In this document: one piece after another, positions 20,765 through 22,723 of the stretch
Position numbering within the stretch: position 1 is the stretch's first letter
Layout: each line of letters begins with the position of its first letter
Position numbers and translations under genes: made by a program
The notes under the pieces: generated by a model
Database searches by the model: none
The model's input: only the letters and a program-made list of their open reading frames with translations
Told to the model about the DNA's origin: nothing
IMG/VR virus record: IMGVR_UViG_3300013132_000055
Coordinates: 1-62,259 of that record
Source of the DNA: a virus
Direction: 5' to 3' (one strand)
Length of the DNA stretch: 62,259 nt

Positions 20765-20929
20765 CTAGTGGTGTTGCTGATGCTTCAGCGACTCCATCTT
20801 TTCCTTCTCATCCTTTAGGTGCTGCATGAGGAGGTCGATGTAGACCCTCCGTTCCCACGGCATCATGCCCTCAAGATCGGTCAGCGTGTAGTTGAAGTGC
20901 TGCATCATGGCGAAGTTGACCGATAGCAT
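20765..20929 (-). CDS. Small tail-assembly ORF between gp26 and tape measure (probable frameshift extension)
   Basis: If started at ATG 20929 it gives 54 aa, MLSVNFAMMQHFNYTLTDLE then MMPWERRVYIDLLMQHL, a conserved motif set ('F-N-Y-T-L-T-D-L-E-x-M-M-P-W-E-R') found next to gp26 in related phages. No ribosome-binding sequence precedes this ATG. The frame stays open upstream through the end of gp26, and a slippery T TTT TTC lies at 20968-20962, so the natural product may be a gp26 fusion of about 299 aa made by -1 frameshifting. By analogy with lambda GT it would chaperone the tape measure. Confidence 0.65.
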   Translation of the reverse strand: MLSVNFAMMQHFNYTLTDLEGMMPWERRVYIDLLMQHLKDEKEKMESLKHQQHH

Positions 20930-20955
20930 GTTCAGAAGGCTGTCGTGGGAGGAGG

Positions 20956-21663
20956 CTATGAGAAAAAACTTGCGATCCCCTTGAGCAGATGCTCGTTCGG
21001 GGTCTTGCAATGGGTGCAGATGAACTGCACGGACTTCTCAATCTTCGGCATGGTGTCGAGGAAGTCGAACAGTTTCCTGAACTGATCCTGCGTCATCTGT
21101 TCGATGAACTCACGAATTTCCGACTCCTCCATCTCGGAGCAGTCGTACACGGTCTCCCCTTGGTTGATCTTGTCGATGCACTTGGTCAGCAGGGAGAATG
21201 TCCTGTCCACATCCGAGCCGTTTTCGATGGAGTCGATGTCCTCAAGGGTCGGGTATCGCATCACGATGCTGATGTCTGAGACGAGGGGGATGACCTTCTT
21301 GTGGTTTGGGGAAAATTGCGGTACGAGTTCCTTGATGTTGACCTCGCACTCGGTGCCGCCGCCGCACTTCTCGCACTTGACCATCGGCTTCGTGGTTTCC
21401 CCGACCGATTGGCTGCGGAGTTGCAGGAACAGGTACTCCATGTCGAGCAGGGGGATCTTGGTCACATCGACCTTGCCTCCCGTGCAGGAAAGCACGACCT
21501 CCCTGATTGCGCTGTAGATGCTCTTCTCGTTCTTGGTCTCCGCCGCCATGAGGAGGATCTTCTCCTCCTTGACGATGAACGGACGGTATTCCACCTTCTT
21601 CCCGCTGAGGGGGAGGGTGGTCTGATGCTTGGGTACTGATGCGAGGATTCCGCTGAGGGACAT
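20956..21663 (-). CDS. gp26: Baseplate hub / tail-assembly protein gp26
   Basis: A 235-aa protein with the family opening TLPLSGKKVEYRPFIVKEEKILLMAAETK. Two Cys pairs, C-E-K-C (VKCEKCGGGTEC) and C-T-H-C near the C-terminus, form a probable zinc site. This is the T4 gp26-type baseplate protein family. ATG 21663 is preceded by AGGAG; an in-frame TTG two codons upstream was rejected. The gene ends in the slippery heptamer described separately. It is flanked by gp54 and the tape measure, consistent with a role in assembling the hub or chaperoning the tape measure. Confidence 0.85.
   Translation of the reverse strand: MSLSGILASVPKHQTTLPLSGKKVEYRPFIVKEEKILLMAAETKNEKSIYSAIREVVLSCTGGKVDVTKIPLLDMEYLFLQLRSQSVGETTKPMVKCEKCGGGTECEVNIKELVPQFSPNHKKVIPLVSDISIVMRYPTLEDIDSIENGSDVDRTFSLLTKCIDKINQGETVYDCSEMEESEIREFIEQMTQDQFRKLFDFLDTMPKIEKSVQFICTHCKTPNEHLLKGIASFFS
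20962..20968 (-). promoter_or_regulatory. Putative -1 ribosomal frameshift site T TTT TTC
   Basis: The gp26 reading frame ends AGT TTT TTC TCA TAG, so the heptamer T TTT TTC is in the correct phase for tandem -1 slippage two codons before the stop. After slipping, translation continues CTC ATA GCC into the 20765-20929 frame without interruption. Confidence 0.6.
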
Positions 21664-21688: not shown

Positions 21689-22723
21689 TCATCCGAAGAA
21701 ACCCGCCCCGAAGAACCCTTGGGTCTGCGAGAGGAGGGTCAGCCCGAGGTCGAGTCCGCCTTGGCGTGGGGTTTGGTACACGACCCTACCATCGACACTC
21801 CTCGGGAAGTCTTCATTCTTGTACTCAGCCAACTGCTTGGAGTACGCCTCAAGTATCGAACGCTGCTTCCTTTGGACTTGGTCGAAGTTCGCCCGTTCAC
21901 GCATGCCTCCGACGATGAAGCCGCTCACAGCCTTGTTGAGGTTGTATTGGCTCTGCCGCAGGATCTTCTCGTTGGAACTGTTGTCGATCACGGGGAAGCC
22001 TGTGTCGGTGATCGTGGGAAGCGTGTTGGTGTAGGTCAGGTTGATCCCTTGCAGGGAAACCATATCGTGATACATGATGCCGACATCGATTGTCATCGGT
22101 TCGGTGGATGACCCGTAGTTCAGGGATCCTCCGTTGATGTTCACCCTGTATGGGTACACCTCCGTGAGGCGCACACCCGTGATCTTTCCCTGATACATCG
22201 CCTCCATAGCCATGTCGAAGTTCCTGACATGCCTCGGGAGGAGCATGATGTAGACCTCGCTGTCTCCAGCGTAGTCATCGTAGAACTTCCATTGCTTGGT
22301 GACGGGGTTCTGTAGGTAGGAGTACCACCCGTCGAAGAACTCCTTCTCAAACAGGTCGGAGCCGCAGTTGAACTGAAACAGCATGCCCGAGCCGTTGTTG
22401 GTGTTCTTCTTGTACGGGAAGACTCGGTTCGCACCTGCCGTGATGTAGTTCTCTTCGGTGGTGTACCAACTCTTGTCGTTGATCGTCATCGACTTGCAGG
22501 TGGTGGCGAGTCGAGCGACATCGGGTACGAACTCCATGCCAATAGCCTTACGGACCCGCTCGTTGGGGAACATCATCACCAACCATCGGTTGGCGGACAT
22601 GAACCCCGTCTCCCGCAGCCGCCCGTAGGCGTAGTCCATGAAGGACGGTGCGGGGCTGTCTTGCGATCCCTGTTGGAACCGTGCCCGTGCGGAAAGTAGG
22701 TCTGATCGGAAGTCTAGTCCCAT
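21689..22723 (-). CDS. gp54: Baseplate tail-tube initiator gp54-like
   Basis: A 344-aa protein. Residues about 28-330 follow a tail-tube-like pattern: FMSANRWLVMMFPNERV, then CKSMTINDKSWYTTE, then an insertion, GSDLFEKEFFDGWYSYLQ and VYIMLLPRHVRNFDMAMEAMY, and the strand ITGVRLTEVYPYRVN, all comparable with the gp19 tube protein in this window. T4 gp54 is 320 aa. A separate gp48 candidate is at 23841, which is why I prefer gp54 here; a swap of the two names is possible. It caps the hub and starts tube polymerisation. The C-terminus is Gly/Phe-rich (FFGAGFFG). Confidence 0.75.
   Translation of the reverse strand: MGLDFRSDLLSARARFQQGSQDSPAPSFMDYAYGRLRETGFMSANRWLVMMFPNERVRKAIGMEFVPDVARLATTCKSMTINDKSWYTTEENYITAGANRVFPYKKNTNNGSGMLFQFNCGSDLFEKEFFDGWYSYLQNPVTKQWKFYDDYAGDSEVYIMLLPRHVRNFDMAMEAMYQGKITGVRLTEVYPYRVNINGGSLNYGSSTEPMTIDVGIMYHDMVSLQGINLTYTNTLPTITDTGFPVIDNSSNEKILRQSQYNLNKAVSGFIVGGMRERANFDQVQRKQRSILEAYSKQLAEYKNEDFPRSVDGRVVYQTPRQGGLDLGLTLLSQTQGFFGAGFFG

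Follow-up and report, generated by a model that had tools for sequence, protein, structure and literature searches.

The locus described here raises the question of whether gp26 of a T4-like phage and the small open reading frame (ORF) that follows it are two genes, or one gene that is read in two ways. In the window, by which we mean the whole stretch of DNA that was analysed (62,259 nucleotides), gp26 sits between a gene matching the PHROG 45 tail tube family and an ORF of 945 amino acids, which we call the presumed tape measure gene since its family matches are weak (Table 1). An earlier note on this DNA had proposed a -1 frameshift at the end of gp26 that fuses it to the ORF before the tape measure, in a layout like that of lambda G/GT, and comparative evidence supports this proposal, with frameshifting being predicted. 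Specifically, we consider it highly probable, on comparison of related sequences, that gp26 together with the ORF ahead of the tape measure forms a single gene, which encodes a two-form tail assembly chaperone (TAC) by way of -1 frameshifting. This T4-like phage very probably makes the short and long forms by a one-base backward slip near the end of the gene.

Table 1. Coordinates of the features of the gp26 locus in the window, with the assignments and the basis for each
Feature	Position	Strand	Basis or remark
Tail tube / tube initiator gene, gp54 position, upstream of gp26	21689..22723	-	PHROG 45 tail tube E 2e-5
gp26, predicted short form of the tail assembly chaperone (TAC-N), 235 aa	20959..21663	-	PF12322, PHROG 150
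AAGGGG, SD-like element, candidate dnaX-like stimulator	20977..20982	-	8 nt 5' of heptamer; anti-SD pairing
Slippery heptamer T TTT TTC, gp26 phase	20962..20968	-	Sole TTTTTTC in window; 90/94 related loci
gp26 stop TAG	20956-20958	-	Gene including stop, 21663-20956
Predicted -1 frame extension (TAC-C, T4 gp51-like domain), LIASSHDSLLNMLSVNFAMMQHFNYTLTDLEGMMPWERRVYIDLLMQHLKDEKEKMESLKHQQHH	20768..20961	-	PHROG 634, PHROG 150 C-terminus
First ATG of -1 frame, without ribosome-binding site	20927..20929	-	SD pairing 0 kcal/mol
Extension stop TAG	20765-20767	-	
Presumed tape measure protein, 945 aa	17915..20752	-	Position just downstream and length; weak family matches

The 3' end of gp26 reads GGG ATC GCA AGT TTT TTC TCA TAG, and contains in the phase of gp26 a heptamer of the X XXY YYZ type, T TTT TTC, that is separated from the stop by a single sense codon (TCA). 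The earlier note had placed this heptamer at the end of gp26 with a -1 slip leading into the next ORF, and all of its coordinates agree with ours. It had also described the frame of that ORF as open back through the end of gp26, and we find the -1 frame to be open from 79 nt 5' of the gp26 stop through to its own TAG. The first extension codon has the heptamer's last base (20962) as its first position, and the frame continues for 65 codons, translated as ...KFF LIASSHDSLLN M20929... QQHH, before ending shortly before the presumed tape measure gene. Counting both strands, the window (57% G+C) holds a single TTTTTTC, and this copy is the gp26 slip site. Phenylalanine is encoded in the window by TTT 120 times and by TTC 694 times (814 in total), and AGT or TCT account for 161 of 1358 serine codons. 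Given the residues Ser-Phe, codon usage would lead to a slippery T TTT in about 2% of cases, whereas it was found in 90 of 94 related loci.

These 94 loci are those with a readable gp26 end, and the identity of gp26 across related loci is about 20-100%, being about 20-40% for many. An in-phase heptamer is present in 90 of them, as T TTT TTC in 77 and T TTT TTT in 13, and the 90 loci reduce to 61 distinct 120-nt windows, which are not independent events because the sequences are related. The codon 5' of the heptamer is AGT, GAT, AAT or TCT, with the final T present in all. In every one of the 90 loci the heptamer is followed by a conserved -1 extension (FF[RL]IALSHDSL...), in which FF, L, F, E and Y are invariant in an alignment of 27 rows, conservation setting in right at the heptamer's FF. 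An alignment of gp26 loci from related T4-like phages had been suggested in the earlier note, and it shows both the heptamer and the overlapping -1 frame to be conserved. The phages that carry the heptamer include cyanophages and phages of Pelagibacter, Methylophilales, Sinorhizobium, Caulobacter, Stenotrophomonas, Acidovorax, Pseudomonas, Aeromonas and Vibrio, and the layout is also seen in phages of Variovorax; within the Straboviridae the heptamer is found in V05 and AS-szw, while T4 has two genes instead. In Vi01 (locus L086, 3750-3850), Vibrio D507 (L091), Ds3CZ (L098) and TSW001 (L101) the -1 extension is kept without a standard heptamer, the place of which is taken by ATT TTC or CTT TTC. 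In the Pelagibacter phage Mosig (L083, 2480-2540) the gp26 stop lies 10 codons past the heptamer, compared with 2-4 elsewhere, and the 0-frame and -1-frame products therefore have a longer overlap.

Directly 5' of the heptamer there is a conserved purine-rich, SD-like element, which the earlier note had missed. It lies at about -15 to -9 and reads AAGGGG here and GAGGG, AGGAGG or AAGAGG in relatives. Over the 61 distinct windows the anti-SD pairing of this AAGGGG-type run has a mean of -7.2, compared with a mean of -5.1 on synonymous resampling (the lowest of 40 replicates being -5.4) and -2.4 for gene-wide windows; the run is conserved beyond synonymous expectation. It is too distant from any downstream start to serve a second ORF as a ribosome site. 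Downstream of the heptamer, this phage shows no excess stability of structure over synonymous shuffles (z +0.8 and +0.5), and a 93-nt downstream window in 62 relatives shows a slight tendency to be structured (mean z about -1.0). RNAalifold gave no convincing helix for the 17 nearest relatives and an Rfam search gave no match at the locus. The ATAGC/GCTAT pairing put forward in the earlier note is present in the window but is lost in relatives, for example in L006, and so is not a conserved stimulator. The upstream SD-like element, which we regard as putative, is the likelier of the two to stimulate a slip.

If the downstream ORF were instead a small gene in its own right (gp51), with ribosomes either initiating at its own start or re-initiating once translation of gp26 had terminated, this would agree with most public annotations, such as those of P-SSM2, Mosig, Melnitz, phiM19 and P-RSM6, and with the five lineages (5 of the 61 windows) in which an ATG overlaps or adjoins the gp26 stop and where coupled re-initiation may occur. 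The first ATG of the -1 frame (20929), however, lies 11 codons past the slip and, as the earlier note had remarked, has no ribosome-binding site, the computed SD pairing being 0 kcal/mol. Across the 61 windows the first ATG lies 2 to 33 codons past the slip with a mean SD pairing of -0.95 (3% at -5 or better), against a mean of -6.0 (82% at -5 or better) at the gp26 starts used for comparison. Moreover, conservation sets in with the FF of the heptamer. When 18 distinct close relatives are compared over the stretch from the slip to the first ATG, codons of the -1 frame differ synonymously 363 times and non-synonymously 317 times, as against 147:481 and 52:620 when the remaining frames are read, these counts being pairwise and so not independent. 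The stretch evolves as coding DNA of the -1 frame and therefore looks translated in that frame, and such selection before the ATG is nothing that a separate downstream gene would require. Homologues with a strong start of their own and no heptamer had been named in the earlier note as evidence that would count against a slip; these were examined, and the outcome favours frameshifting. Taken from these signals, the extension appears to be without independent translation, and since T4 gp51 also corresponds to the full-length fusion and not to a small protein, we consider a separate gene improbable.

A slip of RNA polymerase on the run of six T, joining the frames in the mRNA and not at the ribosome, could yield the same protein from what is a homopolymer run. 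Runs of 6-7 T are, however, short for efficient polymerase slippage, in phase and codon placement the site keeps strictly to the ribosomal X XXY YYZ pattern, and a conserved SD-like element is what would be expected to act on ribosomes, so that we hold this explanation to be somewhat less probable still. That the heptamer stands by chance beside an unrelated frame, or that a sequencing error has broken an in-frame fusion gene, is refuted by the conservation of the site, which is shared by 61 distinct windows taken from contigs and isolates that are independent, and we give this reading practically no weight.

The gp26 protein matches PF12322 T4_baseplate (E 2e-57) and the PHROG 150 baseplate hub family (E 1e-58). 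The extension matches PHROG 634, baseplate hub assembly catalyst (E 2e-20), as well as the C-terminus of PHROG 150; T4 gp51 also matches PHROG 634, and by this profile match the extension is a member of the T4 gp51 family. A Pfam search with the extension gave at most sub-threshold chance matches, and a PDB search by sequence gave nothing meaningful. When T4 gp26 and gp51, which both fall in PF12322 and PHROG 150, were aligned to a profile built from 54 distinct predicted fusions, gp26 covered positions 10-236 (E 2e-22) and ended at the FF of the slip site, whereas gp51 covered positions 20-280 (E 5e-15) and ran through the extension. The two T4 genes are divergently oriented neighbours. Since the short form has its counterpart in gp26 and the whole frameshift product in gp51, T4 encodes both forms as separate genes. 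In a tree of gp26 domains the two T4 proteins could not be placed, their branches being very long, and thus a single duplication is not demonstrated.

The predicted structure of gp26 (pLDDT 87) matches the predicted structures of baseplate hub proteins from many phages and has no significant match to any solved structure; among the matches listed, the highest probability (0.13-0.16) belongs to the HK97 tail assembly chaperone 2ob9, with E 2.4. The extension is modelled with modest confidence (pLDDT 72, pTM 0.48) as helices, the last one being long. We also observed two CxxC pairs in gp26, CEKC and CTHC (residues 97-100 and 217-220; window 21003-21375, minus strand), which suggest a zinc-ribbon-like site and which are replaced or lost in many cyanophage relatives.

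We propose that most ribosomes would stop at the gp26 TAG to give the short form of 235 amino acids, and we infer that a minority would slip back by one base on T TTT TTC, with tRNA-Phe re-pairing from TTT TTC to TTT TTT. The slip would probably be aided by pairing of 16S rRNA with the AAGGGG just upstream, and the slipped ribosomes would make a long form of 299 amino acids that carries a gp51-like helical domain. On the lambda model, the part common to both forms may coat the tape measure protein and the extension may recruit the tail tube subunit, with both chaperone forms departing before the virion is complete. Going further, we suggest tentatively, as a possibility that we would not yet favour, that gp26 frameshifting is ancestral to the whole T4-like supergroup (Kyanoviridae, Emmerichvirinae and Schizotequatrovirus within Straboviridae, Rhizobium-type phages and others), that it is stimulated by the SD-like element without downstream structure, that it was lost once on the T4 line by duplication into 26 and 51, and that Ackermannviridae-like relatives use a non-standard [AC]TT TTC site with the same -1 frame.

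In public records the extension is left unannotated in L081 (2517-2700), L082 (2517-2700) and L092 (3760-3926), and is called a separate 'gp51' or 'baseplate hub assembly' gene in L083, L084, L087, L099 and L100; no gp26-locus public record examined has a joined feature of gp26 and extension. In one of these records, that of Synechococcus phage ACG-2014j (L081, 2701-5198), the gene at the tape measure position bears the annotation 2OG-Fe(II) oxygenase family like protein. In many T4-like genomes the small ORF that bears the name gp51, or has no annotation, very probably forms the C-terminal part of a frameshifted chaperone. T4 gp26 and gp51 have been listed as hub assembly chaperones, gp51 being needed for assembly yet absent from the particle (PMC3004832), and gp51, in 2010 described as essential and of unknown function, would gain a concrete role as the long form. 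To the published principle the present analysis adds the broad test of conservation, the tests of coding selection and of start sites, and a candidate upstream stimulator that is open to direct mutation.

With regard to known systems, the abstract of the 2022 study of T4-like chaperones is said to describe frameshifting as conserved in several T4-like groups. That study (Vladimirov, Gautam & Davidson 2022, Virology 566:9-15, doi 10.1016/j.virol.2021.11.003) is cited by later papers for the T4-like chaperones TAC-N / TAC-NC; as relayed there, some T4-like phages have a short gene alongside a long fused one (PMC10885494), and chaperone genes of T4-like phages are known to use poly-T sequences as -1 signals (PMC12846349). 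As these two papers relay it, this runs against the earlier note, which knew of no established report for the gp26 locus of T4-like phages, and our finding therefore adds a member, with predicted frameshifting, to a known kind. By that account, the published chaperones share with this locus a common gene family, a two-form product and a poly-T slippery site, the present case being a new member from an uncultured phage. A review of 2016 described G-T frameshifting as widespread, with T4 excepted (PMC5009743). Lambda gpG / gpGT likewise has a short chaperone, a -1 slip near the 3' end, an extension and then the tape measure, but belongs to another sequence family and uses another slippery heptamer, the PF12322 protein being larger than gpG; no significant match in sequence or fold was found. 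In E. coli dnaX an SD-like element stands about 10 nt 5' of the slippery heptamer, as at this locus, although dnaX also has a downstream stem-loop, of which none was detected in this phage. In T4, where the counterparts of the short form (gp26) and of the whole frameshift product (gp51) are separate and divergently oriented genes, no frameshift is needed.
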